IMG/VR virus record: IMGVR_UViG_3300010413_000863
Span: 1-35,285 of that record
DNA length: 35,285 bases
From: a virus
Direction: 5' to 3' (one strand)
Shown here: piece by piece, positions 3,905 to 35,285 of the stretch
Position numbering within the stretch: the stretch's first letter is position 1
How the letters are laid out: every line of letters starts with the position of its first letter
The notes under the pieces: generated by a model
What the model was told of the DNA's origin: nothing
Databases searched by the model: none
The model's input: only the letters and a program-made list of their open reading frames with translations
Program-made: the position numbers and the translations under genes

Positions 3905-5133
3905 CCTCTGAGGTCAAGGTCTTCGACATCTCGATCCTTCGTCGGATCGGAAGGCAGATCAACTCACCCTATCGGTCCACCGCCATGCGTGGGACCGAGA
4001 AGGGGCTTGCCCAGCAGATAATCGCCTGGGGAGCGCATCTGGTCTTCGCTCATCACGGCAGGGCTGCCTCCAACTCTCAGTTCCTTGGTGCTCTGAAGAG
4101 GGCTGGGATCAAGACCGCTGTCTACCTCTGCGATGAGCCCTACGAGAGTGGGGAGACCACGAAGTATTCGCCTGGGTTCGATGTGGTCTTCAGCATGGAT
4201 CCATGCACGGTTGAAGCACATCGGAGATCCAGGCAGGACAGGACCAGTGTGTTCTACCTGCCTCCTGGGGTTGATCTGTCCCACTTCGTCTATCAGCCCT
4301 ACTACGTTGACGGTGAGCTGGTCAGGAAGACTCCAGCGTTCTTCCTTGGCAACGCTGGTCTGATCCCCAGGGTTGAGTGGCTGGAGCCGGTTGATCGACT
4401 GATCGAGGGTGCTGACATCAGGTTCTTCAAGACACCGAACAAGGGTCATCCGAAGTGGGTGAAGCTCGACCAGCATCCAGCCCTCTACTCTGGCTGTCTC
4501 GTTGGTCTCAACGTGCATCGTTCTCCAGTCATCACGAGAGACTGCTTCAAGACGCGCGTGCTTGGGCGTGGCAACGAGCCGATACCCAAGGGCCTGACCC
4601 TGTGCCCTCAGATGCCAGCGAAGCAGGGGACCGGGTTCTGGAACGACGGCAACCTGCCTGCTGCTCACGTCAACCCTCGGTTCATGGAGATGGCGGCGTG
4701 TGGAACGCTCGTCGTCTCGGACAACCACCGATCTGAGCTGGCTCGCCTGTTTCCGATGGCTCCTCAGGCGGAGAGCCCAGAGCACTTCTACGAGCTGGTC
4801 AACTACTACATCGAGCACCCTGAGGAAGCTGAGGAGATCGGACGCACATGCTCCTACCTGATTTCGAGGCGGCACAGCTATCAGCACCGCGCGGCAGAAG
4901 TTCTGATCCGAGCTGGCTTCAGGGAGTCGCTACCGGACAAGCAGCTTTCCTCCTTGGGGCCGCTGGAGGACTGGTTGACTCCTCAGGACTGCGGGCCGCT
5001 CGGAATCGAATCGTTCTTGGATCGAACTGGACGCTCCGAGCGTTGGTCCCCTCAGCTTGGCATGTCGTTGACCAAGGTGTCTGGAAGAGTGAGCGACAGT
5101 TCCTCTCTGGATGCCCCGACTCCATGGTTGTGA
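3790..5133 (+). CDS. CgeB-like glycosyltransferase (GT-B fold)
   Basis: The frame is open from further upstream, but ATG 3790 is preceded by AAGGAG with seven bases of spacing, giving a 447-residue protein. It begins with a Rossmann strand (PLKIAIADDSG), contains AVYLCDEPYES and FLPPGVDLSHF-like segments, and has the donor-site signature of GT-B enzymes near residues 295-315: NPRFMEMAACGTLVVSDN, followed by HFYELVNYYIEHPEEAEEIG. This pattern is that of CgeB/GT1-like transferases found in many phages and cell-wall clusters. Matching ends near residue 377 (RAAEVLIRAGF). The remaining 70 residues overlap the next gene by 286 bases and may be unselected tail or the result of an indel. Substrate unknown. 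Confidence 0.8.
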   Translation: MARVIGRGGPLKIAIADDSGLIFSDDYRSGWPNGFRSLASEVKVFDISILRRIGRQINSPYRSTAMRGTEKGLAQQIIAWGAHLVFAHHGRAASNSQFLGALKRAGIKTAVYLCDEPYESGETTKYSPGFDVVFSMDPCTVEAHRRSRQDRTSVFYLPPGVDLSHFVYQPYYVDGELVRKTPAFFLGNAGLIPRVEWLEPVDRLIEGADIRFFKTPNKGHPKWVKLDQHPALYSGCLVGLNVHRSPVITRDCFKTRVLGRGNEPIPKGLTLCPQMPAKQGTGFWNDGNLPAAHVNPRFMEMAACGTLVVSDNHRSELARLFPMAPQAESPEHFYELVNYYIEHPEEAEEIGRTCSYLISRRHSYQHRAAEVLIRAGFRESLPDKQLSSLGPLEDWLTPQDCGPLGIESFLDRTGRSERWSPQLGMSLTKVSGRVSDSSSLDAPTPWL

Positions 5134-17200: not shown

Positions 17201-18019
17201 AGCTTCTGCCAGGAGTTCCTGTCGATGGAAGTCGGCAAGGACGATGAAGGTAACGAGCGTGTCTACCTGGGCGACACCAACGGGTTCGTTTGGATCTTCG
17301 ACATCGGAGACACAGATGGAGTTGGATACCCGAACGCAACCGGCACCGTCAGGGGCACGGTTGCATCTGCTGGAACCGCTATCACCGGAGCCGACTACCT
17401 CACGGTGGAAGGCGGTGGGTTCATCACTGGTGGCCTTCCTGGGCTGGCTGGCCTTTCCGGTCTGGCTGGTCTGTCTGGCGCTCTTGGTGGCACTGATATG
17501 GGTCTGGCAGGAGTTTGTGTCTACACGCGGCCCGCTGGAGCGGCGCTCGATGACCCTTGGACAGTCCGCACCATCTACGCGGCCACCGACGACACCCTCT
17601 ACGTGACGCCTCCGTGGGACGCGGAGAAGCCTGCGGTGGGTGATGACTTCATGATCGGAGCCATCGAGTTTGACTGCCTCTTCAAGCCGCAGAACTACGG
17701 TTCTGACGACATGACCAAGCGGGACTGGAGGCAGGTGGTTGTTCACGAGATCGAGAGCTTCGCCTCGAAGCTCCGCGTGCAGCTTCTCCCGGACTTCCAG
17801 CTCAGCGACCCTGAGGAGCTTACAGTCATCGACTCGGTGACTCAGGAGACTGGCCAAGGCCGGGTCTTCCGCATGGACTACAGCAAGGGTCGACAGGTGA
17901 AACCTCTCGGTCGCTACGTCCACAGCTTCATGGCGGTTCGGTTCAAGAACTTCGCTCCCGAGGAACCCATCCGCATCATCAACCACATCCTGATGACAAC
18001 CCCGAGGACATCGAAGTAA
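14258..18019 (+). CDS. Tail nozzle / beta-propeller protein with large inserted domains
   Basis: 1253 residues. Residues 1 to about 530 are an all-beta, Thr-rich region without a firm family; it includes ConA-like stretches (FPLDFNGDDVFTTTIFSNSY). Residues about 535-1250 match propeller-type tail nozzle sequence. They include LLIITNGSTIPKKFNP, TYRYRYTFRN with GKESDPN, the core RNRLFGMGDIPNL, VSNFDRLVICKRRKTYVL, and YYPRKEQYLLLLP-like and GDTNGFVWIFDIGDTD strands. This would be the distal short-tail hub that plugs DNA and touches the cell surface. At residues 1058-1078 sits a Gly-Leu-rich loop (GLAGLSGLAGLSG). The start follows the previous stop by TGATG; the stop overlaps the next ATG as TAATG. 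Confidence 0.8.
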   Translation: MTVLGLRYPKTFVHGDFPLDFNGDDVFTTTIFSNSYLAIGQGASPWIAPSRYSQVRKVVFWLCCRQEQTGADPTFNIRLRMLPNSSSATARVIDTDEVVPGATKLYTDQTITTITNLIYSKVGTSALPRRVGTLSSRDSQIIQIEFDRFDPSSAEFFNDWDLIAANGNENEYLRYHPVIERVDGGTWASGAANPNNPMKVLGVGFSVVQAPTGVNRTCTMVRGYAGNYFNAGITTAADAVNQSRQRPFHYVAADWDNITGIYFWTDMPYTGAAGNDDVQAHVQAATEGSGTITSTERYVENCYPGASTVSKWVHRSQNILSLIQDGDYLGLAFGRHVAVSTNQPTGWFEIIQENFNRTVNFHEFGCAEGYLIGDITPTTTYSPDSALFDPTWYQSLPDDNILSKRLVSAMKQVSAGNVPFQTMVIDADLFTGWSSSTTIQELTPKLSATPTSTVGYKLMDRAIDDAAPDPINLAGQRRLGIRYEGTWVAGGNNQEGGMSYVVALYVPNREFLDLGPVFELGAFNPEGCAATSAGLGEPPLLIITNGSTIPKKFNPTAAGTNGEIEDAGIPTPYEGEVPSSQVDDTAMSPMGGLDAGTYRYRYTFRNCCTGKESDPNLDDIVVDTTGASPSAKVTLSFANVRIPADAQICEICLYRTVEGGDYPIMAKVGCFNPDETSLIVDELGDDQLDFTNDGLSLLNGPMPCVPVVVDFRNRLFGMGDIPNLTPAGLVSVVQGEDIVYGNGAVEWDRCLEGKFIQVGGDCRSYEILRVLPPEAGLSPPIARLKLVEPYEGTTDAALSYTICGRPNRLYFSEPLEPECWPAANFLDVEPGDGDRLMGAVSNFDRLVICKRRKTYVLTFRENPGLEIIVPSRISSDIGCIAPRSFAQVESGSVWLSDRGLALYDGRTVQHVEESSNMNDLFTDPDNPNYIRRDRNGRVIEAVGVFYPRKEQYLLLLPTIQTDRGCNLMLVWDVKLKNVTLLSFCQEFLSMEVGKDDEGNERVYLGDTNGFVWIFDIGDTDGVGYPNATGTVRGTVASAGTAITGADYLTVEGGGFITGGLPGLAGLSGLAGLSGALGGTDMGLAGVCVYTRPAGAALDDPWTVRTIYAATDDTLYVTPPWDAEKPAVGDDFMIGAIEFDCLFKPQNYGSDDMTKRDWRQVVVHEIESFASKLRVQLLPDFQLSDPEELTVIDSVTQETGQGRVFRMDYSKGRQVKPLGRYVHSFMAVRFKNFAPEEPIRIINHILMTTPRTSK

Positions 18020-18834
18020 TGGCTGGCGGAGGCAAGGTAAGAATCGCGGACCGAGACAACACGGGCGAGATGGCTCGGGTGGTCAACGGTCGTCTTCTGG
18101 TTTCCGGGTCTGGCGGTGGCGCGGCTACTGACGTGAACATCGACCAAGTCGGAGGCAACCCGGTAGGGACTACGGTTCCGGTCAGCGACGGCGGCGGTTC
18201 TCTGACGGTAGACGGAGCTGTCACCATCCAAGAGCCACTCTCCGTTGATGACAACGGTGGATCGCTGACCGTGGACGGAACTGTCGATGTCGGCAACTTC
18301 CCCGCCGTTCAGCCGGTGAACGACAACGGTGGTTCGCTGACGGTCGATGACGGCGGTGTTCCGATATCCGTAGATGACAACGGTGGTTCTCTGACAGTCG
18401 ACGGATCGGTTGCCGTCAGCAACTTCCCTGCGGTCCAACCAGTCAGCGACAACGGTGGATCGCTGACTGTGGATGGTGCAGTGACGGTCAGCGGGACGGT
18501 GAGCGTCTCCAACGGGTTCACCCCGAGCCAACTCAATCAGTCTGTCGCTGGCGAACCGATCGCTGTGACAACTGTGGCTCCAGTGAACGTCCACAACCCA
18601 GGCGGGGCAGAACTCATCACGATCTTCGCATCCAACCTGACCACGGTGGATGCAACGATCATCGTGAACTTCGGAGGCGCTGTCGCCCCTGCTAACGACC
18701 TCTACTTCTTCGTCCCATCGGAGGAGACGGTCCCGCTTGTCGTGCAGGCGTATCTCGACAACGGCTCCATCGACATCAGAAGGGCGGCAGGAGCCGGTCA
18801 AATCAACATCTTCGGCAGGGTGGACGTGCTGTGA
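18019..18834 (+). CDS. Beta-repeat tail fibre/appendage protein
   Basis: 271 residues. A short N-terminal anchor (VRIADRDNTGEMARVVNGRLLVSG) precedes five copies of a [V]xDxGGSLTVDG repeat (residues 55-165). Two repeats are followed by NFPAVQPV. Such repeats form trimeric beta-stalks in phage fibres. Residues about 195-271 form a separate beta domain (ELITIFASNL ... INIFGRVDVL) that recurs in the next gene. It probably forms a trimeric host-contact or neck appendage. No enzymatic motif or chaperone domain is seen. GTGA overlap with the next gene. Confidence 0.7.
   Translation: MAGGGKVRIADRDNTGEMARVVNGRLLVSGSGGGAATDVNIDQVGGNPVGTTVPVSDGGGSLTVDGAVTIQEPLSVDDNGGSLTVDGTVDVGNFPAVQPVNDNGGSLTVDDGGVPISVDDNGGSLTVDGSVAVSNFPAVQPVSDNGGSLTVDGAVTVSGTVSVSNGFTPSQLNQSVAGEPIAVTTVAPVNVHNPGGAELITIFASNLTTVDATIIVNFGGAVAPANDLYFFVPSEETVPLVVQAYLDNGSIDIRRAAGAGQINIFGRVDVL
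18181..18480 (+). repeat. Five tandem coding repeats (xDxGGSLTVDG)
   Basis: Copies begin at about 18181, 18244, 18316, 18370 and 18442, so spacing is 63, 72, 54 and 72 bases, that is 21, 24, 18 and 24 residues, all multiples of three residues. Nucleotide identity between copies is high in the GGTGGATCGCTGAC-type core but drifts at third positions, showing selection on protein sequence. The even three-residue steps fit a triple-stranded beta-helix. Confidence 0.8.
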
Positions 18835-19893: not shown

Positions 19894-20095
19894 GACCTGC
19901 AACGTCGAGCCGTTCCGGTATCAGGCTACTCCACAGTCGGGAGCGGAGACTGGTGCCTCATCCAACCAGATCAACGAACAGGCGTTGGAGGGATACCTCT
20001 CTCGCTTGATCGAGGCGGTCTGCGCTGACCTGACAGCAATCCAAGCAAGGCTCGATGATTTGGAGGCGCGCGTTACTACGCTCGAAACGCCATGA
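19886..20095 (+). CDS. Small coiled-coil protein
   Basis: 69 residues. The N-terminal third is polar, and the C-terminal half is a clear coiled coil (LIEAVCADLTAIQARLDDLEARVTTLE) with heptad Leu/Ile/Val. Small trimeric coiled coils of this sort occur in tail appendages and as fibre connectors. It overlaps its neighbours by eight and four bases. Function not recognised. Confidence 0.65.
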   Translation: MAETCNVEPFRYQATPQSGAETGASSNQINEQALEGYLSRLIEAVCADLTAIQARLDDLEARVTTLETP

Positions 20096-20928
20096 CACTA
20101 GGAGACACTGCGGGACAGTGGCAGAACCAGCAACAGCAACAGCAGCAGCCTGGGCAGACTGGCACTGGCGGCCTCCCTGGCATCGCTGGGGCGCAGTCAG
20201 GGCAGGGCCTTCCTCCGACGGGGATGCAGCAGCAGCTCCAGTCGCTCAACTCTCTCTACGATCAGGTCAAGAACATCCAGGGCGGCCTGGGGTTCGACGT
20301 TCGGCAGCAGCAGTTCCAGCAGGCGGGCAACGCTGAGCTGACTCCGCAGACCGGAGGGATGGGCAGCACGTCGCTCGATGCGCTCGCTCGCAACCTCGCG
20401 CAGAACTACGGAATGCCGATCGGTCGCGGCCGGATCGTGGATGAGAACGGCAACCTGCTGATGACCCCTCAGCAGATCGCTGACGCTTCCGGTGGTCAGG
20501 TCACTCTTGGTGAGGCTGCGACACAGCTCCAGATGATCTCTCAGGCCATCGCGAACAAGCGCAACGAGCAGCAGCAGCAGAAGGGCATCGCGGCCTTGCA
20601 GACTGGACTGGGGCAGGTGCAGTCGCGTGGTCGTGGCTCACTCGCTGCCTTGCAGATGGGGCTCTACGAGGGTCTGGCCGACATGTATTCCAACCAGGAA
20701 TACGAGGCGGCCGACTACAGCTACTTCGTGCAGAAGGAGCAGCTCGACATCCAGCAGGAGCTGATGCGGAAGCAGGAAGAGATGCAGAAGAAGCAGTCTC
20801 GCATGGGCTTCTTCGGTGGTCTGCTAACAGCAGGTCTCGGTTTCGCGACTGGCAACGTCGGCATGGGTGTCGGCGGACTTGGCCAGACGTTCGGATCGGC
20901 AGCAGGAACAGGATGGTTTGACTTCTGA
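20092..20928 (+). CDS. Putative internal virion/ejection protein A
   Basis: 278 residues. The N-terminus is Gln/Gly-rich and disordered (residues 10-60). A helical middle (GEAATQLQMISQAIANKRNEQQQ) follows, then a charged helix (FVQKEQLDIQQELMRKQEEM). The C-terminal 45 residues are Gly-rich and hydrophobic (FFGGLLTAGLGFATGNVGMG). This combination of helix plus a short membrane-active glycine tail recalls podovirus ejection proteins (T7 gp14, P22 gp7-type). The assignment rests on position before two larger internal-type proteins and on composition, not on a firm homology. Confidence 0.5.
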   Translation: MTLGDTAGQWQNQQQQQQQPGQTGTGGLPGIAGAQSGQGLPPTGMQQQLQSLNSLYDQVKNIQGGLGFDVRQQQFQQAGNAELTPQTGGMGSTSLDALARNLAQNYGMPIGRGRIVDENGNLLMTPQQIADASGGQVTLGEAATQLQMISQAIANKRNEQQQQKGIAALQTGLGQVQSRGRGSLAALQMGLYEGLADMYSNQEYEAADYSYFVQKEQLDIQQELMRKQEEMQKKQSRMGFFGGLLTAGLGFATGNVGMGVGGLGQTFGSAAGTGWFDF

Positions 20929-22382
20929 TGGCACGCACAAGCAAGACACGAATCGGTGCGGAGCAGGGTGAACGCGCTCGCGCGATGCGTGAGGCTGCCG
21001 CCACTGGATCTGCTGCCGTCCAACGCGCTCACGAGAGCAAGATCGCCAGTGAGCAAGCCGGTCAGGAGCAGATCACTCGGACCGGGATGCAGGCTGGCCA
21101 GCTCTATGAGGAAGGCGCTCGTCGCCAGGAACAGGCCAAGCAGGCAGAGGCTGACCGCGAGGTGCGCAGCCGGATCGCTGAGGGCGAGTTCAACCTCGCT
21201 GAGCGTGAGAGCCGCATCCGCGCAGCCGACGCCGGGATCGAAGGCGTGGAGAAGCTCCAGAACCCGCTGGAGCAGCGCAAGCAGAAGCTCCAGGCTGAGA
21301 TGGATCAGGGCAACCCGCCAGCCGCCCCAGGTGGCGCAGGTCCTGGCCCTCTTCCGTCGGAAGACGCCCAGCGCCTCCAGCAGCAGACCGGCAAGGATCT
21401 CGAATACACCGGGCGTGGTGGCTACCAGTCCACCCAAGGTCCGGGCGGCATCCGTAGGTCTGGTGAGCGCACGCAGCGTGAGGCGCGCGAGGCTCGCCTC
21501 TTGGAGCAGAAGATCGAGCTGAACGATCTGAAGCTCGCTGAAGGCGGGATGAAGTATCAGGAGGCCCAGGCGAAGGGCAACGATCAGGAGCGTCTCGCTG
21601 CCCTGAAGAGCATGAGCGATTCGATCGACGAGTCGCAGGAACTCATCAACAAGCTGATGAGTGGCGAGATCACGCCGGAAGCCATCGCGGAGACCTACTC
21701 TGACAACCCCTCATTCGAGGGCGGTCAGGTGGACAAGAAGCGCGCGGCGCAGTTCCTCCGCACACGTCTGGGGCAGCAGCAGGTCTCCTTCATGGCGGCC
21801 AGCGGGCAACTCCCTCCAGGCTACGATCCTGACAACCCGGTTATCAAGAAGTTCAACGAGAACTACCAGAACGTCGCAGCATCGTTTCGTTCGCTCGGAC
21901 AGCTCGCGTCCACTGGTCTCGGAGCGCAGGGCTCAGCATTCCAGCAAGCCTCACAGGAATACGGTCAGGGTGAGCAGGGCTCGGCGATCCAGCAGTCCTG
22001 GCAAGGCATCCGCACGATCCAGGAGCGCAACGAGTTCCTTCGCCAGACGACAGCTCAGATCATGCTCGAAGCGGAACGCTATCGGGCACAACAGCAGTTC
22101 TTGATGAAGGCTGGTGGCTTCCAAGAGCAGCTCTCCCAGCGAGACCAGAAGATCGCGCAACAGCAGCAGTTCATCCAGCAGTTACAGGAGCAGGTGCAGC
22201 TCCTTGGTGGAGGTGGTGAACAGCGTCCCGAGACTGAGATGCGCCAGGGCATGAACGAGCAAGGTGAGCCAGTAACAGAGCCGGTTCGCGTCAAGAAGTT
22301 CGGCCCACAAGACGAACAGCGTGTGAAGGAGATGCAGGGTGGAAACCAACCCGAACACCAGTTCCGCAACCCAAGGCGCTGA
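20928..22382 (+). CDS. Putative internal virion/ejection protein B
   Basis: 484 residues, very rich in Gln, Glu, Arg and Ala, nearly all helical and coiled-coil (residues 1-190 and 375-445), with no membrane segment or Cys cluster. Composition and place between candidate protein A and the giant protein match the middle ejection protein of podoviruses (T7 gp15-like), which would form a periplasmic tube. No enzymatic motif is seen. TGATG start overlap with the upstream gene; the last 44 bases overlap the giant gene, whose ribosome site lies within this coding sequence. Confidence 0.5.
   Translation: MARTSKTRIGAEQGERARAMREAAATGSAAVQRAHESKIASEQAGQEQITRTGMQAGQLYEEGARRQEQAKQAEADREVRSRIAEGEFNLAERESRIRAADAGIEGVEKLQNPLEQRKQKLQAEMDQGNPPAAPGGAGPGPLPSEDAQRLQQQTGKDLEYTGRGGYQSTQGPGGIRRSGERTQREAREARLLEQKIELNDLKLAEGGMKYQEAQAKGNDQERLAALKSMSDSIDESQELINKLMSGEITPEAIAETYSDNPSFEGGQVDKKRAAQFLRTRLGQQQVSFMAASGQLPPGYDPDNPVIKKFNENYQNVAASFRSLGQLASTGLGAQGSAFQQASQEYGQGEQGSAIQQSWQGIRTIQERNEFLRQTTAQIMLEAERYRAQQQFLMKAGGFQEQLSQRDQKIAQQQQFIQQLQEQVQLLGGGGEQRPETEMRQGMNEQGEPVTEPVRVKKFGPQDEQRVKEMQGGNQPEHQFRNPRR
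22326..22341 (+). promoter_or_regulatory. Ribosome-binding site fixing a GTG start
   Basis: AAGGAG at 22326-22331 lies seven bases before GTG 22339-22341. No ATG with a comparable site exists nearby, so the giant protein most likely starts with this GTG, 44 bases inside the upstream gene. Confidence 0.8.
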
Positions 22383-25300
22383 CCTGTTCTCTGATGCCTC
22401 CGCTGGGCTTGAGCTGCGCAACCAGATCGAGACGACCCAGGACCCGGAGAAGAAGAACGAGCTGAAGCATCAGGAGTGGATGCGCTACCTGGGGTCCACC
22501 GTCAAGGCGACGGTGAATGGCCACGACCCGGTGCGGACGGTCTATCCAGGCTCGCGCTACGCCACTCCAGAGACAGCGCGCAGCTTCATGGTTCCGCAGC
22601 TCGCTCAGCGCCAGGGCGAGCTGAAGATGATGAAGGACCGGCCGGAGGTGAAGGCTTCGGTCGATCTCTACAACTCCTACATGGAGAAGTTCAGGGAGCT
22701 GAACAAGGTGCCGCTGCAAAGCCTCGGCCCCTACGCGACCGATGAAGAGGTCATGCTCGCTCAGCTCCAGATGCACAAGCAGGAGATCCCTGAGGAGGAC
22801 AGGCAGAAGATCCTGTTCGGGCTCGGCGAGGCGATGCGTCTCGGCAAGCAGATCGACCCGAGCTACGACATCAACAACGACGAGGATCTCAAGCACATCG
22901 CAGCATCGGTCGGCGTCGAGGCTGGCCCCGGCTACTTCTCCGAGGGGGATGTGCAGCCAGAAGAGACGATGGGGGCCGTCGGACGTGTCGCCTACGCGGG
23001 CGTGCGCGCGGCCGAGCAGGGCTTCGCCTCACTCGGGAACGCAGCGATCGAGCTGGGCCTGACAGCGATGGAGGGGATGAGCAGCGATCCCTACTACACC
23101 GATCTGCTCAACGCCTACCGAGCTGAGACGCAGGGCAAGCCCTACGTCGATCAGAACGGGCAGCTCGTCAACACGGCACCTCGACCGCAGACGATGGCCA
23201 ACGCCTTTTGGACGCTCCAGAACGTCCGAGGCAAGATGACCGCCGACGAGATCCGCAAGATGGCGGTGCGGTTCGGCGATGAAGAAGCGATCCTCCATGC
23301 TCAGAAGAGCGGAACGATCGAGGAGTTCAGCACTGCTGTCTCCGCAGGTCTCGGATCGCTTGTTTCGTTCATCGGCACAGGCGGTGGAGCCCTGATGAAC
23401 GCTGGCATGAAGGGCGTTGCCCTCATGTCGGTCGCCAAGGAGGGCTCGCGCATGGCGCTGATCGCCAACGCTCTGCGCGGCTACAAGGGAGCTGGCTTCG
23501 TTCGCAGCTCACTCGGTATGGGCATCGGCACAGCGATGCACGAGTCTGCGCTTTACGGCAGAGTCGATGGCTACGGCAAGGCGTTCGTGAACGGTCTCAT
23601 CATGGGGCCGGTGTTCGCTGCCGGTGGCGTGATGGGCAAGAGTGCGGAGCGGATGCTTGCCACGCGGAAGTCGATGCCAGCGTTCGTGAAGAACGGCATC
23701 AGCGGCTTTGCCGAGGGACTCGGCATGGCTCCTGGCTCGGTCTTCCAACTCGAATCCTCCCTGTGGAAGTTCATGCGCGATCCGAACCCGGATCACGCGA
23801 ACGAATACATGAAGGAAGTCCTGGCCACCGCCATGACGTTCGCGATCTTCAAGATGCGAACGGGCACGACTCCCGGCATGGAAGCCGGTGAGAAGATGGT
23901 CAGTGCCGAGCGCGAGACTGCCTTCCGTCAGATGCTGAAGGAGGAAGCTCAGCCGACAGCACAACAGCGTCAAGCGGAGCGTGCGCGTGATGCGCGGATG
24001 CTCGAAGAGGTCGCGCGGCTACGCAGCGAGGGCAAGGAGAAGGAGGCTCTCCAGGTCGAGATGGAGCGCCTGGGTCTGCGCCAAGCGAAGCGGCCGAGCC
24101 AGGAGACGATCGCGCGTCTGAACAAGGCCAAGGAGACCCTGCTGCGCAAGAAGCGCGGGGCAGAGCCCGAGCTGACCGAGGAACAGAAGCTCGAAGAGGC
24201 CAAGCGGCGCGTCGTGGACTTCGACAAGCTCACCCTCGAAGAGCGGCGCACCCTGGAGATCGAGCGGCGCAAGGGCAAGGAGCTGACGCCGGAGCAGCTC
24301 GAAGCCAGAGTCCAGGAGCTGCCGGATCCCCTGGAGCGGACCGACTTCCGCGATCTGCCGGACCACATTCAGAAGCGACTCATCGACGCCCCGGACGCGG
24401 CGGCTCGCAAGAAGCTCTGGTTCGAGTGGCGGGCCGGTGAAGGCGAGCGCCGGACAGGCGAGCGCCGCCAGGGCCGCGTGGAGATCGCAGGGGCCGCGCT
24501 CAGCCCACGGGGAGTCACCACCCTCCGTCGGGCGCTGAAGAGCGTGCCGGGCGCTGAGCGGCTCGCAGAGAGCCTCACGACAGCCCCCAGGATGTTCAGC
24601 CGGGAGGAGCAGACGTTCTTCCGGGAGGTGATCGACAAGCGCATCCGCGAGCTGAAGACCGTGGAGCTGCGCTCCCAGCTCGGCGAGGGGGCTGGCCGGA
24701 GCGAGGTGCTGAAGCGGACCGCCCGCGAGATTGCCGTGCTCCAGGAGGCCAAGCGGCGGATCGTCCGCAAGCCAGCGATCGTCGAGCGCGTGAAGAAGGC
24801 CGACGCCGTCACGCTGGGAGCGATGGCGAAGATCGCCCTCTCCAACCTGCTTGGGGAGAAGGCTGTGGAAGGACTCGCCAAGCCCCACTGGAAGGAGGCC
24901 CGCCAGGACGCCATCACCCAGGTCGAGGCGGAGATACGGCGTCTCAAGAACGTCGAGCTGCGGGGCACCCTGGCGGCCACCGACAAACCCGGTCGGGCGC
25001 AAAAGGCCAGGAAGGAAATCCGGGCTCTCCAGGAGGCCCTGAAGCGCCTCAGGTTCGCCGAGGAGGCAGAGGTAGCCAAGGAGGCCGGAATCCACGAAGA
25101 GCCAGGGCTGCCCGGCGTGGGGGCCGCAGCGGGCACCAAGAAGCTCGGCCTGGAGAGTCTGATCGCCCAGGCGCACCGGCTGGAGCAGGCCGGGGAGCGG
25201 GTGAGCCTCGGGCAACTGACCGAGGCCGGTCGCCGGATCCGGGCGCGCGGCGAGCTGGAGGCGCAGTTGGAGGCCATGGGCCGGACCCCGGCACAGGCCG

Positions 25301-28300
25301 GACAGCTCGGGCCAGCGGAGACCGTCATGGGGCGGCTCCAGGAACTCGCTCAGCGGCGGGAGGTGAAGGCCAGAGGCAAGCGGGCCGAGATCGGCATGGC
25401 GATCGGTGAGGGCCGCTTCCACGTCATCAAGGGCAAGTCGGCTTCAGTCCCCGTCAAGGAGCTGAGGGAGATCGCCGACGCCATGGGGATCCCCTTCGAT
25501 CAGGTCTCGATGGTTCACACCCATCCGAGCCCCAGCACGGTCAGTCCACGGGACGTGATCGAGACCGTCAAGAAGAGCGTGAAGGGCGTGAAGGATGCCG
25601 CGCCCGACTACATGGTCACGTCGGATGCCATCTACGAGATGCGCTACGTCGGCGAGAAGACCAAGGAAGCAGCAGAGCAGGCAGAAGCGATCCACGATCG
25701 CCTCATGCAGAGCTACGAGACCAACACGCAGCGGCTTTCCGAGATCGTTGCGAAAGAGATGGCTCTCGATCATCAGGAAGTCGTGGACGCCTACTGGAAG
25801 CGTGCTCGTCGTGAGACGATGACGCCCAAGGAAAAGCAGATCGTTCGCCGCGTGGATCAGGAGTTCGAGCAACTGCTCGAAGACCTTGCCGGGACCATCG
25901 GTGTCGAGATCAAGAAGGTCAGAGCCGAGGAGGTCGAAGCCAAGCTCTTCCCGGAGCGTGCGATGGAGGCCGAAGCTCGTCGCGAGCGCAAGGAAAGCGA
26001 CATCGCAACCGAGGCCGAAGCAGAGGCCGAGGTCGAGCCGGTTGGAGAGGTTCCTTCGGAAGCTCCGCTGCGCGCAGAGCCCGGCACTCACGAAGAGATG
26101 ATCCAGATGGCAACCCAAGCCGATCGGGTCATCAAGTCGTTCGAGTCACAAGGATGGAAGACTGACATTCCAGAGCCACGAGAAGGCCAGCCGAAGTCTC
26201 TTCGTCTTCGGCCGGAGTGGCAGGCTGAACCGACTCAAGAGAACGTGCCGATGACTCGTCGGCGCGACATCATCCAGGTGCTCGAAGGACTGCCAGACGA
26301 CCCGGTCCAGATTCGGATTCGAGAGGGTGTCGGTATCAAGGGTGAGCGAATCCCAGAAGGCGTGCTCGGCTGGTATATGGGCCTGCATCATCAGATCAGG
26401 CTCCGCTACCCCCGTCGGATTATCGAGGCCACGCACGAGTCCGCTCACGCCATGGATGAGGTGCTCCAGCGGAGGGGCCTGTGGCGGCCTGGAAAGACTA
26501 CGGATGTCCCAGACTGGCTCTTCCATGACTTGATGAAGGCTGCGGAGACCTACCCGAACCTCAGGAAAGCATACGAGCTGGCGAAGGACATCGAGAACGA
26601 GCTGCCCAACATGCAACCGGGCCAGCGTCAGCTTGCCGAGATGATGTTGGAGCAGTTGAAGAACCACGTCCTCGCGGAAGGCTGGGCGGAGTTCTGGGCT
26701 CGCTGGCGGCTGGAGGACCCGATCCTTGAGAACGAGGTGCCGCGACTGCACGACTTCATGCTGAACGATCTGATGCAGAGGCCGGGGATGGAGGGCTTCA
26801 TGCGTCAGAACATGCGCGCCAGAGACGTGCTCACCAAGTATCGGGAGCAGGGTGCGCGCGGTCGAGTTCGCTCGTTCCGCGTGATGTCTGGCGACAAACC
26901 GACGGAGATCGAGAAGGCAGTCAGGCCGACTCTCTGGCAGCAAACCAAGTGGGCGTTCGAGGAAGCCTTCCTGGACGATCTCGCTCCAGCCAAGCGCACG
27001 CAGCAGCGGTGGCTGAAGGCAACCGGCATCGACAAGCTCAGCATCACGATGGATCCGGTGAGGATGCTCGAAGCGATGCGCATGACCGCCTACCAGCAGG
27101 CGGACACGATGGTCAAGCTGAGGACCATCGACATGTTCGGCAAGGAGACAGGTCCGGGCCTGGAGCAGACTCTCCTGAAGGTCGGTCGTGAGGACAGCCC
27201 GGAGATGGCCGAGTTCCTCGACTACCTCACTGCTCGGCGCGTGATCGCCACGCACGAGTTCTACATGGGCAAGGGCCAGAAGGTCCCCGAGATGGGGATT
27301 GCCTTGCAGGACGCGCTCGCCGTCGTCCGCGAGACGATGGACAGTCCGAACGCGAGCAAGTTCCAGGAGGTAGCGGAGCAGGTGCGCGAGTGGTCGCTGC
27401 GCATCCTGGACTACGGTGTCCAGGCTGGCTCGATCAGGCAGAAGGACGTGGACAACATCCAGGCTGCCTACGATGTCTACATCCCCTTCAAGCGTTCGAT
27501 CGAGCAGGCCACCGGAGAGAAGGTCGAGCGTTCACTGCCCGGCCGAGGTGTTGCCGAGCGAGCCAGAGCACTCCGTCGGCTCAAGGGCACAGACTACGAG
27601 ATCGAAGATCCGATCCAGGCACTGCGCGAGCAAGCCTACGACGTGATCCGCAAGGCGCAGCAGCACATGGTCATGCAGTCGATCTACCTGATGGACCGCG
27701 TGATGAACCCACGGCTCGCCAAGGAGGGCAAGCCTGGGCTCGGCGGCTTGGCTGTCGAAGTGCCGCGTGACGCGGAGCCGAAGCAGATCCTCCTGAGTCG
27801 CATCATCAAGTCGATGAAGAAGAAGGCTGGCCCGGAGCAGCGGCAGGAAGCCGAGCGGGTGGCAGCACAGATGATCGACCTGTTCGGCGGCGACGCCGAC
27901 ACAGCCCTGACGTTCTTCTTCCCGATGGGCTTCCCTCGCGGCCATCGGCCGCGAGTTGCCTTCCGACCGAACGCCCCAGAGTCCTTCCTTCAGGAGATGG
28001 GCCTGACACCGCAGGAGATCAGGAAGATCAACGCTGAGCGCGGCGAGCTGATGTGGTTCGAGCTGGACCCTGTGCTCTACAACGCCCTGACCACGATCGA
28101 CGCGCCGCGTCCATTCCTGGAGCACGCCCCCGAGTTCTTGCGCAAGGCGATCCTGGTTCCGTCTACCGGCGTGCGTCTGGGTGCTACCGTGCTCAGCCCA
28201 GCGTTCGTGCTGCGTAACCTGACTCGCGACCCGATGACGGCCGCGATGTTCAAGCAGGGCAAGAAGAGCTACGGGCTCGTCAACGCATGGGCTGACTCTG

Positions 28301-29622
28301 CGCGTGCTGCCATGGAGCAGATCAAGGCAGCGAAGGGGAAGCCGACCGAATACACACAGTTCCAAGCCCTCGGCCTGGAGGGTGCCTCGATCTACGGAAC
28401 CGAGTTCCAGAGGCAGCCCCTTACCGCAGTTCCCGGCCTGCGGATGTTTGCGCGGCAGGTGAAGGCCATCGCGCGCTTCTTGTCGAAGCCTGAGTCCTGG
28501 AACCGATACATCGAGTTCAAGGATGTGAAGGAGGCTCTGGAGAAGGAAGGCGCTCCTCGCATCGAGGCTCAGCTCGAAGCGATGCTCGCTTCCAAGGAGA
28601 TCACCAACAACTACACGCGCGCAGGGAACCTTGCTCGTGCGCTGAACCAGCTCGTTCCCTACTTCGCTCCGAACCTCGCAGGTAAGCGGAAGCTCTGGAG
28701 GTCGCTGCTTGGGATGGAAGGCAAGCAGGCTCAGGCGAACGCCTGGATCCGTGGAGCGCGTGATCTAGGTGCCATCACTGGACTCGTCTACCTCATCAAC
28801 ATGATGCAGGACGACGAATGGCGGAACGATCTGCCTGACTGGCAGCGGCAGCTCTACTGGAACGTCAAGCTGCCGGGCACTGACAAGATCCTGAAGATCC
28901 CCAAGCCGTTCGAGGCCGGACAGATTTTCGGCACCTCGATGGAGGTGACACTCGATGCGATCCGCATGGAGCATGGTGACGAGTTCGCCAAGGATGCACT
29001 GATCGCGTTCGGGGCCGACCAGATGGACTCGGTCACGAACGCCTGGAAGTTCGCCGTGCTGATGCCCTTCCTGGAGGTGATGACCAACTACTCCTTCTTC
29101 CGCAAGCGGGAGCTGGAGCCGTCCTGGATGCAGGAGACCCGGTTGTCCCAGGATCGTTACACTCGCTACACGACCGGCATCGCCAAGGGCCTCGGTCAGC
29201 TCACGGGCAAGTTCGGGCTCTCGCCCATCGAGATCGAGCAGCTAGCTGGAGGCTACTCCGGCGGCATGTTGCTCTCGATCATGCGGGCGATCGACGACGT
29301 GGCCGAGGCCGCGTCGAATCTGGCTGATGGGAAGCTCCAGGTGCCGGACATCTCGCTCGGCATCGCGCGCTCCTTCACGGGCACCCCTCACGGCCAAGGG
29401 GCCTACGCGGACGCGATCTACCAGTGGTCGGAGTATCTCTCCCAGGCCGCCGGGTCCGAGAAGATCACCCCCTTGCAACGTGCCCTGCGTCCCCGCGTAG
29501 AGCGCGTGAAGGAAGCGATCTCCACCATCCGTCGGACAGTCGAGGACCCGGTCCAGGCTGACCGTATGATCTACGAGCTTGCTCGCCCCCTCATCGACCA
29601 ACTCGGGAGCCTGAAGCCATGA
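22339..29622 (+). CDS. Giant polyvalent ejection protein with JAB and HExxH metalloprotease motifs
   Basis: 2427 residues, the largest gene of the window. Residues about 330-505 are Gly/Ala-rich and hydrophobic (AVSAGLGSLVSFIGTGGG), likely membrane-active. Residues 540-1000 are long Arg/Glu helices. A JAB/MPN-type site follows: E1017 and HTHPSPSTVSPRD with H1060, H1062, S1069 and D1072. A zincin motif HESAH (H1366, E1367, H1370) has candidate third ligands E1447/E1451 (AEGWAEFW). The C-terminal third contains LRNLTRD (near 1959) and NNYTRAGNLARALN with VPYFAPN (2090-2108), the pattern of LPD38-type domains of polyvalent phage proteins. Such proteins are injected with DNA; proteolysis of host or virion targets is inferred. 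It ends in an ATGA overlap. Confidence 0.75.
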   Translation: METNPNTSSATQGADLFSDASAGLELRNQIETTQDPEKKNELKHQEWMRYLGSTVKATVNGHDPVRTVYPGSRYATPETARSFMVPQLAQRQGELKMMKDRPEVKASVDLYNSYMEKFRELNKVPLQSLGPYATDEEVMLAQLQMHKQEIPEEDRQKILFGLGEAMRLGKQIDPSYDINNDEDLKHIAASVGVEAGPGYFSEGDVQPEETMGAVGRVAYAGVRAAEQGFASLGNAAIELGLTAMEGMSSDPYYTDLLNAYRAETQGKPYVDQNGQLVNTAPRPQTMANAFWTLQNVRGKMTADEIRKMAVRFGDEEAILHAQKSGTIEEFSTAVSAGLGSLVSFIGTGGGALMNAGMKGVALMSVAKEGSRMALIANALRGYKGAGFVRSSLGMGIGTAMHESALYGRVDGYGKAFVNGLIMGPVFAAGGVMGKSAERMLATRKSMPAFVKNGISGFAEGLGMAPGSVFQLESSLWKFMRDPNPDHANEYMKEVLATAMTFAIFKMRTGTTPGMEAGEKMVSAERETAFRQMLKEEAQPTAQQRQAERARDARMLEEVARLRSEGKEKEALQVEMERLGLRQAKRPSQETIARLNKAKETLLRKKRGAEPELTEEQKLEEAKRRVVDFDKLTLEERRTLEIERRKGKELTPEQLEARVQELPDPLERTDFRDLPDHIQKRLIDAPDAAARKKLWFEWRAGEGERRTGERRQGRVEIAGAALSPRGVTTLRRALKSVPGAERLAESLTTAPRMFSREEQTFFREVIDKRIRELKTVELRSQLGEGAGRSEVLKRTAREIAVLQEAKRRIVRKPAIVERVKKADAVTLGAMAKIALSNLLGEKAVEGLAKPHWKEARQDAITQVEAEIRRLKNVELRGTLAATDKPGRAQKARKEIRALQEALKRLRFAEEAEVAKEAGIHEEPGLPGVGAAAGTKKLGLESLIAQAHRLEQAGERVSLGQLTEAGRRIRARGELEAQLEAMGRTPAQAGQLGPAETVMGRLQELAQRREVKARGKRAEIGMAIGEGRFHVIKGKSASVPVKELREIADAMGIPFDQVSMVHTHPSPSTVSPRDVIETVKKSVKGVKDAAPDYMVTSDAIYEMRYVGEKTKEAAEQAEAIHDRLMQSYETNTQRLSEIVAKEMALDHQEVVDAYWKRARRETMTPKEKQIVRRVDQEFEQLLEDLAGTIGVEIKKVRAEEVEAKLFPERAMEAEARRERKESDIATEAEAEAEVEPVGEVPSEAPLRAEPGTHEEMIQMATQADRVIKSFESQGWKTDIPEPREGQPKSLRLRPEWQAEPTQENVPMTRRRDIIQVLEGLPDDPVQIRIREGVGIKGERIPEGVLGWYMGLHHQIRLRYPRRIIEATHESAHAMDEVLQRRGLWRPGKTTDVPDWLFHDLMKAAETYPNLRKAYELAKDIENELPNMQPGQRQLAEMMLEQLKNHVLAEGWAEFWARWRLEDPILENEVPRLHDFMLNDLMQRPGMEGFMRQNMRARDVLTKYREQGARGRVRSFRVMSGDKPTEIEKAVRPTLWQQTKWAFEEAFLDDLAPAKRTQQRWLKATGIDKLSITMDPVRMLEAMRMTAYQQADTMVKLRTIDMFGKETGPGLEQTLLKVGREDSPEMAEFLDYLTARRVIATHEFYMGKGQKVPEMGIALQDALAVVRETMDSPNASKFQEVAEQVREWSLRILDYGVQAGSIRQKDVDNIQAAYDVYIPFKRSIEQATGEKVERSLPGRGVAERARALRRLKGTDYEIEDPIQALREQAYDVIRKAQQHMVMQSIYLMDRVMNPRLAKEGKPGLGGLAVEVPRDAEPKQILLSRIIKSMKKKAGPEQRQEAERVAAQMIDLFGGDADTALTFFFPMGFPRGHRPRVAFRPNAPESFLQEMGLTPQEIRKINAERGELMWFELDPVLYNALTTIDAPRPFLEHAPEFLRKAILVPSTGVRLGATVLSPAFVLRNLTRDPMTAAMFKQGKKSYGLVNAWADSARAAMEQIKAAKGKPTEYTQFQALGLEGASIYGTEFQRQPLTAVPGLRMFARQVKAIARFLSKPESWNRYIEFKDVKEALEKEGAPRIEAQLEAMLASKEITNNYTRAGNLARALNQLVPYFAPNLAGKRKLWRSLLGMEGKQAQANAWIRGARDLGAITGLVYLINMMQDDEWRNDLPDWQRQLYWNVKLPGTDKILKIPKPFEAGQIFGTSMEVTLDAIRMEHGDEFAKDALIAFGADQMDSVTNAWKFAVLMPFLEVMTNYSFFRKRELEPSWMQETRLSQDRYTRYTTGIAKGLGQLTGKFGLSPIEIEQLAGGYSGGMLLSIMRAIDDVAEAASNLADGKLQVPDISLGIARSFTGTPHGQGAYADAIYQWSEYLSQAAGSEKITPLQRALRPRVERVKEAISTIRRTVEDPVQADRMIYELARPLIDQLGSLKP

Positions 29623-32075: not shown

Positions 32076-32301
32076 GCTCCCGAAACCTCTTCAACCAAGC
32101 TCTGAATATGCGATCTATCTCCTGCGAAGTCAGTGGTCTCTTGGCGAGGTAGGGGACGAGCTTACCGTCGATCTGATCGAATTCCTCCCAGAACTGACGG
32201 TCAGCTCCGCCGTCCGGGAACGCCTGCTCGTAGACCTTGCAGGCTTCCTCAGAACACCGGCTCAGCTTCCCCGATATCTTCTCGTCGGTCAGGGTAGTCA
32301 T
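32023..32301 (-). CDS. Hypothetical protein between helicase and resolvase genes
   Basis: 92 residues on the minus strand, starting at ATG 32299-32301 with GAGGTGA about seven bases upstream. It is acidic to neutral, largely helical (CSEEACKVYEQAF, IDRIFRAWLKRFRELVEQAR), with two Cys (CSEEAC) and no known domain. It overlaps the upstream primase-helicase by 53 bases and the downstream resolvase also by 53 bases. Its place in a replication operon suggests an accessory role, for example a nuclease or helicase partner, but this is only context. Confidence 0.65.
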   Translation of the reverse strand: MTTLTDEKISGKLSRCSEEACKVYEQAFPDGGADRQFWEEFDQIDGKLVPYLAKRPLTSQEIDRIFRAWLKRFRELVEQARTRAAQGGERTR

Positions 32302-35285
32302 ACTCAGTCACCTCTTCTGGATCGTCGAGCAGAGATGGGATGCTTGGCTCCCCTCTGCCTCCTTCTCTGACCCACTTCTCGAGCACCGACCAGCGATGCT
32401 GCACGGCATACTCGCCGCGCTCCCGGTAGAGCTGCTCGGTTCGGTTCAGGATCTCGACAGCCTCTCCGCTGAGCTTCAACGTGCGCTGCCCCCTGCCCGG
32501 CTCTACGCCCTTGCTGAGCGTCACCACGTTGAGTGCTCGAGCCTTGGCTAGCCAACTGTCGGTGGCTTGGATGTCCGGGAACAAGGTCTGGATCTCGCCC
32601 TTCGTGAAGCTGCCGAGAAGCGAGTTGGCTCGACGGATGGTCTCGATGATCGGGTCTCCAGCCGAGCCGATGCCACGGAAGATCAGGTGCTCGGCAGCGT
32701 AGGGCTGACGGACCTCGTTCTCGATGCGCCTCCGTCGGCTCCAGGTGTCGTATTCGATCGACTTGTAGGTGTAGCGGAGCCACTCCGCCGCGAACTCTAC
32801 GTGTGGCCTGCGGACGATCACCTTCTGGGGGTGTTCTGGATCGTAGGAGTTGAGCAGGTTGGCTACCGCGATCGCTTGCCGAAGGATGCTGAGCGGCTTC
32901 TCTGCCCGCACGAACATCGGGATCTCCTTCTGCCAGTAGACCTCTGCCATGTCATCGCAGATGTCTCGCGCGAGCTGCGCGGCGTCCGGCTCGATCACCA
33001 CGTCACGCTCGGTCTGCAACCACGCCCTCTGCACGAGGCAGTGCAGCGTGTTGGAGCCGAGCAGGGAGGGCTCGTCGCTCTGCTTCCAGTTCTTCGCCTC
33101 GGCCCTGAGGCAGTAGTCGAACCGGCGGATGGACTCCTCTCGATCGTTGCAGAACCGGGCGATGTGCTGGCAGGCTGCACCGAACGTGTCCCTCTGGCCT
33201 CCGTAGTAGTTCAGGATCCACACCGTCCTGACACAGCAGGCGAAGTCACGGTCTCCGCCGCCAGCCTTGGCCGACTGCACCACTCCGTCGGATCTGGCGG
33301 ACTGCACACCCTCCATCACGTCACGCGGCATCAGGTGGGCCTCGTCCACCGCCATCATCCCGCCGTGCTCCTTGGGGTAGATGCCGATTTTGCTGACGTA
33401 GCCGCTGACCCGGTGGTCACGAACCGAGCCCACCAGGAAGCCAGCCCTGGAGGTCATCGAGCCTGAGGCGTTGTAGCTGCCACCCACCACCTCGGCGATC
33501 GCCTTGAAGATCGGGCTCTTGCCTGCGCCTGTGTCGCCGACGATCGCGCAGTCGATCCAGCCGCGCACCAGCTCGCCGGTCACGGGGTCACGGAACCAGA
33601 GCGTCGAGCAGGCGCACATCAGAGCAGCGATGTGCAGGTCATCCTGGTCATAGATGCCGGTGATGTTCGCACCCACGTCCCGAGCGATCTTGGTGATGGA
33701 CGAGCGCACCTCATCGAGCGTGCGCTGCGGCTGGGCTGCGGCAACCAGCTCGTCCATCGCTTGTGTCAGATCCAGCTTCACCCGGCTGACGGTCTCGATC
33801 TTGGTGGCGAAGATCGCCACGGTGCCCTGGTGCTCGATCACTCGCCCCGTGATGCGCGCGTTGCCTGAGACTGGCGGTGATTGCTCGGACACCACCAGGA
33901 TCCCCATGTGGGCTCGGATGCGGTCATCGTCCGGCACGACCCTCGTGTAGCTCTTGCGTGGCGGTCCGGCGAACCACCTCTTCATCTTCGAGTGGATCTT
34001 GTGCTTCAGCTCCCAGGTCTGGCACCGCGACGGCTTGCCGAGGATCCGCTCCTTGATGAACGTCTCGGCATCCCTGCCTCGTGTGAGCGAGTAGGCTTCC
34101 CGCTCCAGCATCTTCCACTTCACGAGGTAGCCGTTGTGGTCATACTTGACTGGAGCATCGCAGTTGCGGCAGTAGATCGCTGAGCCCTGCGCGCACTCCA
34201 GCTCGCTGAGTAAGGGCACGATGACGTTCTCGTCAGTGATCGCATCGACCGTGCATTCGACGATGATGTTGTGGTTGAGGTAGGAGCCCACCTCCTCGAA
34301 GTCGCACTCGATCGGGGCCTCCTGTCCTGGCCGGATCGTCTCGATGTCCCAGGACAGGAAGTCCTTGGGGTCTCGACCACCTCCCTCGATCCAGTCCCGT
34401 AGGTCAGCTCCCCACTTCACGTCGCCCTTGATCGGCACCGCCATGACGCGCATGTCGATCTCTTCCCCGGTCATCTCCGCTATCTCATCGTGCAGCTCCG
34501 ATGCCTGCTCGAAGAACCGGAGCTGGCGCAGCTCGAACTCCTGGCGTCGGTTCGAGTCGTCGAAAGTCCACTCACGAGGATCCGGGTGCTGGACGAAGTC
34601 GTTGTCGAGCAGCAGCCTGATTGGGTGCCGCATCACCTCTGGAGGGATCGACCGCAGGTGCGGCTTCTGGCCTGCTCCTCCGTTGGAAGCGTAGACGAAG
34701 ATCGGGTGCTCGGCCTCTTGCCAGCGGAGGACACAGCGGGCAGCGGCGGCGTCCCATTCACCCTCCACGATCCACACAGGAGCGTCTGGGTGCTGCTTGA
34801 GGCGGTCCAGGTCCACCAGGGGCCACAGACCAGTGACCGAGCCAGCGTCCTCCTTGCGGGCTGTCTGGTTGCCAGCCCAGCGCCACTCCCCCTTCGACTT
34901 CTGTGCGTGCCAATCGTAGTAGCGGTAGTAGTTCCTCAGGCTGCCATCCGCGTAGCGTTGGAAGGCCACGAGCATCTCATCCAGGTAGCCAAGCTCCAAC
35001 GTGCTCGCATCCTCTGGAGAGATTCCCCGCTCAGCCAGGAACCCACGGAAGAACTTGGCGCGCGGCTCATCGCTCTCACGTAGCGCCTGCGCAGCTTCAG
35101 CCACGAGCTTCGGAGTGACGAGGGCGGAGCGTTTCTTCCTGGCCTCCTGTCGTCGCGGCACCTTCTTCAGCTCGGTGCTCACCCCGTAGAGACCGGCGAC
35201 CAGCTCCAAGGCTTGCAGCTCGCTGATACCCTTGAGCTTGGCTACCCACTGGAACACGTCGAGTCCGTCCTGCTTGCCCGGAGAG
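32249..35285 (-). CDS. DnaG-type primase fused to MCM-like AAA+ helicase (5' end outside window)
   Basis: The frame is open to the window edge, so the N-terminus is missing; numbering is from an internal GTG at 35257. The visible start, GKQDGLDVFQWVAKLKGIS, fits the end of a CHC2 zinc-binding domain. TOPRIM motifs: EGEWDA (165-170), LLLDND (215-220). Then a C363/C366 zinc knuckle and an OB-like segment (460-490), followed by ATPase motifs: GDTGAGKS (574-581), MMAVDEAH (634-641), SDGVVQSAKAGGG (656-668), sensor 1 N683, and RRFD (711-714). The SAKAG and RRFD segments are MCM-type. A lid (785-825) and winged-helix-like C-terminus follow. Likely makes primers and unwinds DNA at the phage fork. 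Confidence 0.8.
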   Translation of the reverse strand, partial: SPGKQDGLDVFQWVAKLKGISELQALELVAGLYGVSTELKKVPRRQEARKKRSALVTPKLVAEAAQALRESDEPRAKFFRGFLAERGISPEDASTLELGYLDEMLVAFQRYADGSLRNYYRYYDWHAQKSKGEWRWAGNQTARKEDAGSVTGLWPLVDLDRLKQHPDAPVWIVEGEWDAAAARCVLRWQEAEHPIFVYASNGGAGQKPHLRSIPPEVMRHPIRLLLDNDFVQHPDPREWTFDDSNRRQEFELRQLRFFEQASELHDEIAEMTGEEIDMRVMAVPIKGDVKWGADLRDWIEGGGRDPKDFLSWDIETIRPGQEAPIECDFEEVGSYLNHNIIVECTVDAITDENVIVPLLSELECAQGSAIYCRNCDAPVKYDHNGYLVKWKMLEREAYSLTRGRDAETFIKERILGKPSRCQTWELKHKIHSKMKRWFAGPPRKSYTRVVPDDDRIRAHMGILVVSEQSPPVSGNARITGRVIEHQGTVAIFATKIETVSRVKLDLTQAMDELVAAAQPQRTLDEVRSSITKIARDVGANITGIYDQDDLHIAALMCACSTLWFRDPVTGELVRGWIDCAIVGDTGAGKSPIFKAIAEVVGGSYNASGSMTSRAGFLVGSVRDHRVSGYVSKIGIYPKEHGGMMAVDEAHLMPRDVMEGVQSARSDGVVQSAKAGGGDRDFACCVRTVWILNYYGGQRDTFGAACQHIARFCNDREESIRRFDYCLRAEAKNWKQSDEPSLLGSNTLHCLVQRAWLQTERDVVIEPDAAQLARDICDDMAEVYWQKEIPMFVRAEKPLSILRQAIAVANLLNSYDPEHPQKVIVRRPHVEFAAEWLRYTYKSIEYDTWSRRRRIENEVRQPYAAEHLIFRGIGSAGDPIIETIRRANSLLGSFTKGEIQTLFPDIQATDSWLAKARALNVVTLSKGVEPGRGQRTLKLSGEAVEILNRTEQLYRERGEYAVQHRWSVLEKWVREGGRGEPSIPSLLDDPEEVTEYDYPDRREDIGEAEPVF

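Follow-up and report, generated by a model that had tools for sequence, protein, structure and literature searches.

A giant protein encoded at the end of the morphogenesis block of a short-tailed phage is probably an ejection protein with swappable cargo. Its chain, devoid of cysteine, joins a conserved zincin metallopeptidase domain to a C-terminal domain that it shares with a protein found in purified virions, and it carries an insertion with a motif like that of JAB/JAMM peptidases, which is a candidate second enzymatic domain.

The gene and its neighbours

The window, that is, the whole stretch of DNA that was analysed, is a virus record of 35,285 bases, classed as linear. Its source is a short-tailed phage, seen in environmental DNA. 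On the + strand, genes for a terminase (phrog_38), a portal (phrog_1216 / phrog_332) and a major head protein (phrog_1328) are followed by the gene for a virion protein of 1253 aa (phrog_511 / phrog_3287) and by several small ORFs. The giant ORF (22339..29622, +, 2427 aa) comes next, as the last gene of this terminase-portal-capsid-tail block. The giant ORF overlaps the preceding one by 44 nt and begins with GTG, with AAGGAG 7 nt 5′ of it. This start is supported by the relatives of the protein, since their alignments to it begin at residues 3-4.

Three ORFs located before the giant gene on the same strand lack cysteine altogether. They comprise 271 aa (18019..18834, +; chance of no cysteine 0.04), 278 aa (20092..20928, +; 0.03) and 484 aa (20928..22382, +; 0.003). 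Informative family matches are absent for all three, and the longest has neither a family match nor a phage match. By analogy, they could be co-ejected channel proteins, the two shorter ones being the weaker candidates, and take the part of gp51 and gp52 of phage N4, which assemble into a complex at the outer membrane and a tunnel through the periplasm (PMC12633501). Near the end of the record, a 1002-aa ORF on the opposite strand (32249-35257, -) matches a primase (phrog_47) and a helicase (phrog_10371).

Domain layout and relatives

The original prediction had described one gene for a polyvalent protein of 2427 residues, with JAB-type and zincin motifs, a hydrophobic Gly-rich region, long helices and an LPD38-like C-terminus. 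Most of this picture holds. The single ORF is recovered with both motifs present, and an HMM search places LPD38 (PF18857) at residues 2159-2325 (28813..29313, +) with an E-value of 1.7e-29 and 103.7 bits, above the curated cut-off of 27, which bears out a polyvalent protein of the phage type. Highly charged, probably helical stretches (38-45% E+K+R+Q) do occupy residues 501-900 and 1101-1300. The Gly-rich region is real (13-17% Gly at 301-500), but its hydrophobicity is only mild, with one 19-residue window above 1.4. Within the chain, zincin and LPD38 are thus established, while a second enzymatic domain, the JAB-like one, is a candidate.

Relatives were found by scanning IMG/VR with the zincin region, which gave two, then with the resulting three-sequence alignment, which gave 19 loci; two further entries, L002 and L003, are contigs of L005 and L012, and another, L042, matches the C-terminal part only and stands outside the zincin and cysteine counts given below. 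An exact-peptide search of IMG/VR for close relatives of the whole protein returned none, and a genome scan for host or prophage kin gave 65 stretches, none of them confirmed.

Compared with these relatives, the protein is a succession of conserved and variable parts. The N-terminal domain (residues 1-520; 22339..23898, +), Gly-rich at 301-500, is conserved in the family: counted in bins of 50 residues, its coverage reaches 14 of the 19 relatives, at 401-450, and it is 45-50% identical in L004 and L005. A charged, probably helical linker follows (521-936; 23899..25146, +), little conserved, where coverage drops to a single relative in 19 and where residues 611-936 are 38% identical to L005. 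Next comes an insertion of 288 residues (937-1224; 25147..26010, +) that is absent from L005, which holds 18 residues there; none of the 19 relatives aligns to residues 951-1200. Similarity to L005 then resumes, at 45% identity over 1225-2427. Beyond the zincin domain lies the C-terminal domain (1531-2427; 26929..29619, +), whose homologue is the C-terminal part of the JC1 protein gp69; about 16-17 of the 19 relatives cover most of 1451-2300. No T7-type RNA polymerase domain turned up when the whole protein was scanned with Pfam and PHROG.

Cysteine avoidance and ejection

Amino acid composition gives the strongest new argument for injection. The giant protein has no cysteine in 2427 residues, whereas 97 occur among the 7,964 residues of 20 other window ORFs; at that rate about 30 would be expected, and the chance of finding none is 1e-13. 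Its family comes close to this. The 19 relatives total 36 cysteines in 43,428 residues, 15 of them in the outlier L006, against 1,340 in 79,203 for the other ORFs of the same loci, both backgrounds being made of mechanical, uncurated ORFs. Proteins of other phages behave likewise: there is no cysteine in N4 gp50 (3,500 residues), gp51 and gp52, in T7 gp15 and gp16 (T7 gp14 has one), in JC1 gp69 (4,515), gp64, gp67 and gp68, in HTVC034P gp44, gp45 and gp46, nor in the giant protein of CF418P1 (2,684), phiARM81mr p69 (3,190) and the Palmer20 protein (1,678); the trait is not specific, for the N4 capsid protein, N4 gp57 and a HTVC034P fibre lack cysteine too.

Absence of cysteine has been reported for N4-like virion RNA polymerases, whose passage through the tail or across the periplasm was suggested to require it (PMC3715699, PMC3915230). 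In the literature that we found, cysteine loss is discussed for these polymerases only, and a review of the field (PMC8954989) does not mention cysteine. Near-total avoidance extends from the N4-like polymerases to the present family of giant proteins, to five homologues from cultured phages and to T7 gp15 and gp16. It could help to recognize ejected proteins from their sequence, and may explain which enzyme classes are possible as cargo.

A second line of evidence comes from the C-terminal domain. Its profile matches JC1 gp69 (E 2e-28) and, with E-values of 9e-72 to 1e-123, four other proteins of cultured phages, the best being HTVC034P gp44 (1e-123). JC1 gp69, with LPD38 at 4195-4401, was detected in CsCl-purified virions by mass spectrometry, with 51 unique peptides (PMC9144972). 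The zincin profile matches none of these five proteins, hence packaging does not in general require the zincin. The proposal that the window protein is delivered into the host is supported indirectly, by this homology to a virion protein, by the position of the gene and by the lack of cysteine, and the protein is most likely injected together with the phage DNA.

A conserved zincin domain

The HESAH site singled out by the original prediction, with its downstream Glu candidates, belongs to a zincin metallopeptidase domain, delineated by alignment, an AlphaFold2 model and fold neighbours at residues about 1285-1510 (26191..26868, +). HESAH itself (1366-1370; 26434..26448, +) provides the predicted zinc ligands H1366 and H1370 and the base E1367; the Glu candidates are now narrowed to EGWAE (1447-1451; 26677..26691, +), with E1447 as the predicted third ligand and E1451 as a second invariant Glu. 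R1354, H1366, E1367, H1370, E1447 and E1451 are invariant in all 19 aligned sequences (the window and 18 relatives), a set that is biased because it was fetched with zincin-motif patterns. L022 is excluded from this alignment, as its HExxH is that of another domain and its match to the window is C-terminal only. The circularity can be gauged: among the 14 relatives holding only one scanned pattern, 13 carry the other motif, the exception being the same L022, where no ExxxE is present by the pattern used. An isolated HExxH is not rare, arising in 762 of 20,000 shuffles of the giant protein.

Prediction of residues 1280-1520 by AlphaFold2, with the alignment as input, yields a confident zincin core (pLDDT 87.7, pTM 0.87): a helix, three strands, the HExxH helix (1361-1378) and the Glu helix (1427-1457). 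This is the core described for the zincins of polyvalent proteins (Iyer et al., 2017; PMC5512222). The model was also compared with solved structures. Foldseek finds no match in the PDB below E 1e-3. VIA gives 88 chains with Z of at least 2, the lethal-factor chains at about 7 and IrrE/PprI at 5.1-5.3, together with MATCAP, collagenase G and IRAP, values below 8 being middling for this tool and some lethal-factor rows aligning another, non-catalytic region. When the alignment profile is compared with PDB sequences, nine Pro-Pro endopeptidase/Zmp1 entries lead (E 0.12-0.17), with their HExxH and Glu helix in register. Pfam ATLF matches two of the 19 members (best E 1.9e-4), the window protein not being one of them, and the best zincin matches among predicted viral structures, at TM about 0.5, include polyvalent proteins.

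Taking sequence conservation and model together, we conclude that the zincin is real, and of a kind already known from polyvalent proteins. In its predicted structure it lies nearest, among solved folds, to the M34/ATLF zincins (the catalytic domain of lethal factor, Zmp1), its HExxH and the Glu helix that follows lining up with theirs, a proximity that falls short of proven membership. These zincins differ in showing no significant sequence match to the window protein itself, whose zincin stands in a phage context. None of the Pfam, PHROG or NCBIfam models identifies the zincin of the window protein. Just N-terminal of the zincin, at residues about 1280-1305, most relatives share a conserved G-x-P-x-S-L-R-x-x-P, a possible hinge or processing site.

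A JAMM-like motif in an insertion

The second metallopeptidase of the original prediction calls for more caution. Its HTHP...S..D motif is there, HTHPSPSTVSPRD, spanning H1060 to D1072 (25516..25554, +), and H1062 and S1069 are separated by six residues, in agreement with the original prediction. The shortened spacing is real but not diagnostic: in the phage-K JAB domains that were read it varies from 7 to 9 residues, which makes six short. Around the motif, a candidate JAB/JAMM region extends over residues about 1006-1110 (25354..25668, +), defined by this motif and by the predicted order of strands and helices. The set E...HxH...S..D comprises H1060, H1062, S1069 and D1072, with E1017 as a candidate Glu. 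As in JAB/JAMM peptidases (Cap3 of CBASS, the phage lambda-K type, RadC), one finds HxHP...S..D with a candidate Glu upstream of it, and a predicted strand that leads into HxH; the differences are the spacing of six, a JAMM fold that is a candidate, and the fact that homology is undetected.

Indeed, a broad search brought no relative of the region. In the window record, the JAB families PF14464 (Prok-JAB), PF14220 (DUF4329) and PF15659 (Toxin-JAB1) have no match at E up to 10, and Pfam, PHROGs, NCBIfam and the PDB gave no trusted match to the region. Membership of RadC was rejected, as whole Pfam-A scans of the protein (E up to 1) and of the region (E up to 10) gave no match. Matches in PADLOC (best E 0.034), NCBIfam (0.21) and Pfam DUF2642 (0.029) were judged to be chance, and so were ubiquitin chains of the PDB (E 0.36). 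Searches for relatives returned 21 phage records (best E 1; two were opened, that of Rowlf included, and the motif is in neither protein), two plasmid records (best E 3), nine IMG/VR stretches and 87 genome stretches, none of these stretches confirmed; among 5,684 ORFs of at least 40 codons in L002-L022 there was none (best E 0.14). An in-frame scan for the exact motif gave 12 matches, none with a plausible JAB context on translation. A lambda-K scan recovered near-identical copies only. In lambda itself (L043, NC_001416, 1128-1876), the JAB part of gene K is split over two frames, the annotated K beginning after the start of that part; in IMG/VR copies such as L063 it reads through.

What, then, is this insertion? 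On present evidence the balance tips slightly towards a JAMM fold. The secondary structure predicted for the region – a strand with E1017, a strand, a helix, a strand ending at H1060, a helix starting after S1069 – matches the order of the JAMM core. If the region is indeed such an enzyme, the protein could be a counter-defence factor with two active metallopeptidases of different clans, JAMM and zincin, both acting on host proteins. We regard this as doubtful. It agrees with the predicted order, with the well-supported zincin and with a motif that is improbable by chance (about 4e-5 expected per protein of such composition; one in 20,000 shuffles). Against it stands the single-sequence AlphaFold2 model of the region, which is poor (pLDDT 55.7, pTM 0.28), draws the expected last strands as helix and has no JAMM among the PDB matches listed by Foldseek, a list that is meaningless for such a model. 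To this must be added the silence of the three JAB families and the profile of 11 phage-K JAB domains, which ranks motif-bearing windows near the top of 193 but over about 19 columns and at 2.5% probability, HMMER giving -3.0 bits. Finally, the region is missing in all 19 relatives.

These very gaps would fit another view, in which the motif is degenerate or arose by chance, the stretch around it is a mostly helical linker of low conservation, and the protein has a single peptidase: no homologue was detected in the collections searched, no relative has the region and its fold is not predicted. This reading seems to us unlikely as well, in view of the rarity of the motif. It is further countered by the shape of the insertion, a clean block, as witnessed by the 18 residues of L005, and by its composition, since residues 1001-1100 are less charged (27% E+K+R+Q) than the flanking linkers and show a plausible alternation of strands and helices. 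We come back to the favoured reading of the insertion as a module that may well have a JAMM fold. The claim of two peptidases from different clans in one chain is thus to be amended to one supported peptidase fold, the zincin, conserved and well modelled, and one motif, HTHP, for which neither families nor sequences nor folds gave a significant match. Considered in isolation, the JAB motif is less to be expected by chance than HExxH; it is conservation that decides the other way, for the zincin.

Place among known systems

The window protein has the features of polyvalent proteins as surveyed by Iyer et al. (2017; PMC5512222), being giant and multidomain, with LPD38, a zincin with HExxH and Glu helix, and variable enzymatic modules; it departs from them by a zincin that the Pfam library does not recognize and by the JAB-like insertion. 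The combination of zincin and LPD38 is already known from that survey. There, JAB domains of polyvalent proteins are of the RadC type and reported from conjugative elements only, LPD38 from phages only (PMC5512222), so that the two together in one protein, once confirmed, would be a novelty. In the literature we found no paper describing a JAB other than RadC in a phage polyvalent protein. If real, the insertion would be, to our knowledge, the first JAB known in a phage protein with LPD38, and a counter-defence enzyme amenable to testing.

N4 gp50, the virion RNA polymerase, offers a parallel in layout. It consists of an N-terminal domain that is likely to span the membrane, the polymerase, and a C-terminal domain in two parts, C1, which has the HExxH, and C2, which is large and helical (PMC12633501, a 2025 preprint). 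The window protein has the same order – N-domain, cargo, HExxH zincin, large helical C-domain – and the same absence of cysteine, and N4 gp50 is known to be ejected. The window protein, by contrast, lacks the RNA polymerase, and LPD38 was not seen in N4. Sequence homology between the two is not significant (E 0.28 for the C-terminal domain; hhalign probability below 3% for the zincin), and for this reason we say that the protein would work like N4 gp50 without calling it one.

With the giant DarB-like protein of JC1/Bcep22 (JC1 gp69, 4515 aa) the kinship is one of sequence: the LPD38 C-domain is homologous, both genes are the last of the morphogenesis block, neither protein has cysteine, and each gene is preceded by a cysteine-free one of comparable length (510 aa in JC1, 484 aa in the window). 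JC1 gp69 differs by its methylase/helicase-like and transglycosylase domains and by HExxH motifs of its own that do not match the window zincin profile.

A proposed mechanism

We propose that the giant protein is packed with the DNA, would pass the tail unfolded and would refold inside the host; threading of an unfolded chain through the tail would account for its lack of cysteine. The zincin (H1366, E1367, H1370, E1447) would most likely cleave its own chain, or hold and then release the cargo, an attack on host proteins being less likely. Self-cleavage or cargo release is the usual proposal for zincins of polyvalent proteins, P1 DdrB being processed and the N4 polymerase not (PMC5512222). 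The JAB-like insertion (937-1224) would most likely be cargo that was acquired recently, probably a hydrolase with a JAMM fold.

Zinc binding and proteolysis are what sequence and model lead us to infer for the zincin. The domain might instead be inactive, purely structural or inhibitory, its HExxH being kept for zinc-dependent folding. There are precedents: the N4 polymerase is packed unprocessed despite its HExxH domain (PMC5512222), and its C-terminal domain autoinhibits the polymerase (PMC12633501). The base E1367 makes this rather improbable, for it is dispensable for zinc binding and is nevertheless invariant in the 19 aligned sequences, which argues for catalysis. Still less probable is a purely structural internal virion protein, a channel like T7 gp16 with no effector role, which would suit the position of the gene, the lack of cysteine and the proximity of HTVC034P gp44, a C-terminal homologue, to a gene annotated as internal virion protein B-like, but hardly the conserved catalytic site or the enzymatic modules that vary at the same place in relatives.

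Our boldest conjecture, built on analogy and very improbable as it stands, is that the insertion is a JAMM isopeptidase, injected ahead of all expression of phage genes, that would strip ubiquitin-like defence conjugates, for example from the CD-NTase of type II CBASS, while the zincin would free it from the carrier chain. It is motivated by Cap3, a bacterial JAB that removes CD-NTase conjugates in CBASS (PMC10097602). Were it true, we would have an injected deconjugase of a bacterial virus. A chain without cysteine excludes cysteine proteases and Cys-ligated zinc, leaving metal sites built from His, Asp and Glu; with this constraint, the meeting of two metallopeptidases in a single chain would be less surprising and, under the conjecture, a carrier that admits only metal-dependent proteases would explain them.

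The ejection protein with swappable cargo, which we prefer, agrees with what lies upstream of the zincin in related phages. A scan of 20 such regions (L004-L022, that of L022 included, and L042) found matches to strawberry-notch-type helicases in two, the scan not naming the members, and, in one region each, GGDEF, ddrB-ParB, LPD1 and a weak GNAT match. An ejection chassis made of N-domain, zincin and C-domain thus appears to carry differing cargo across related phages, and an inventory of this cargo, drawn from sequence, could tell what phages deliver first. One member, L018 (4343-13060), encodes a cysteine-free LPD38 protein of 2906 aa with a GGDEF (diguanylate cyclase) domain at 460-594, possibly an injected second-messenger enzyme. 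The longest proteins of the set are those of L015 and L019 (4291 aa).
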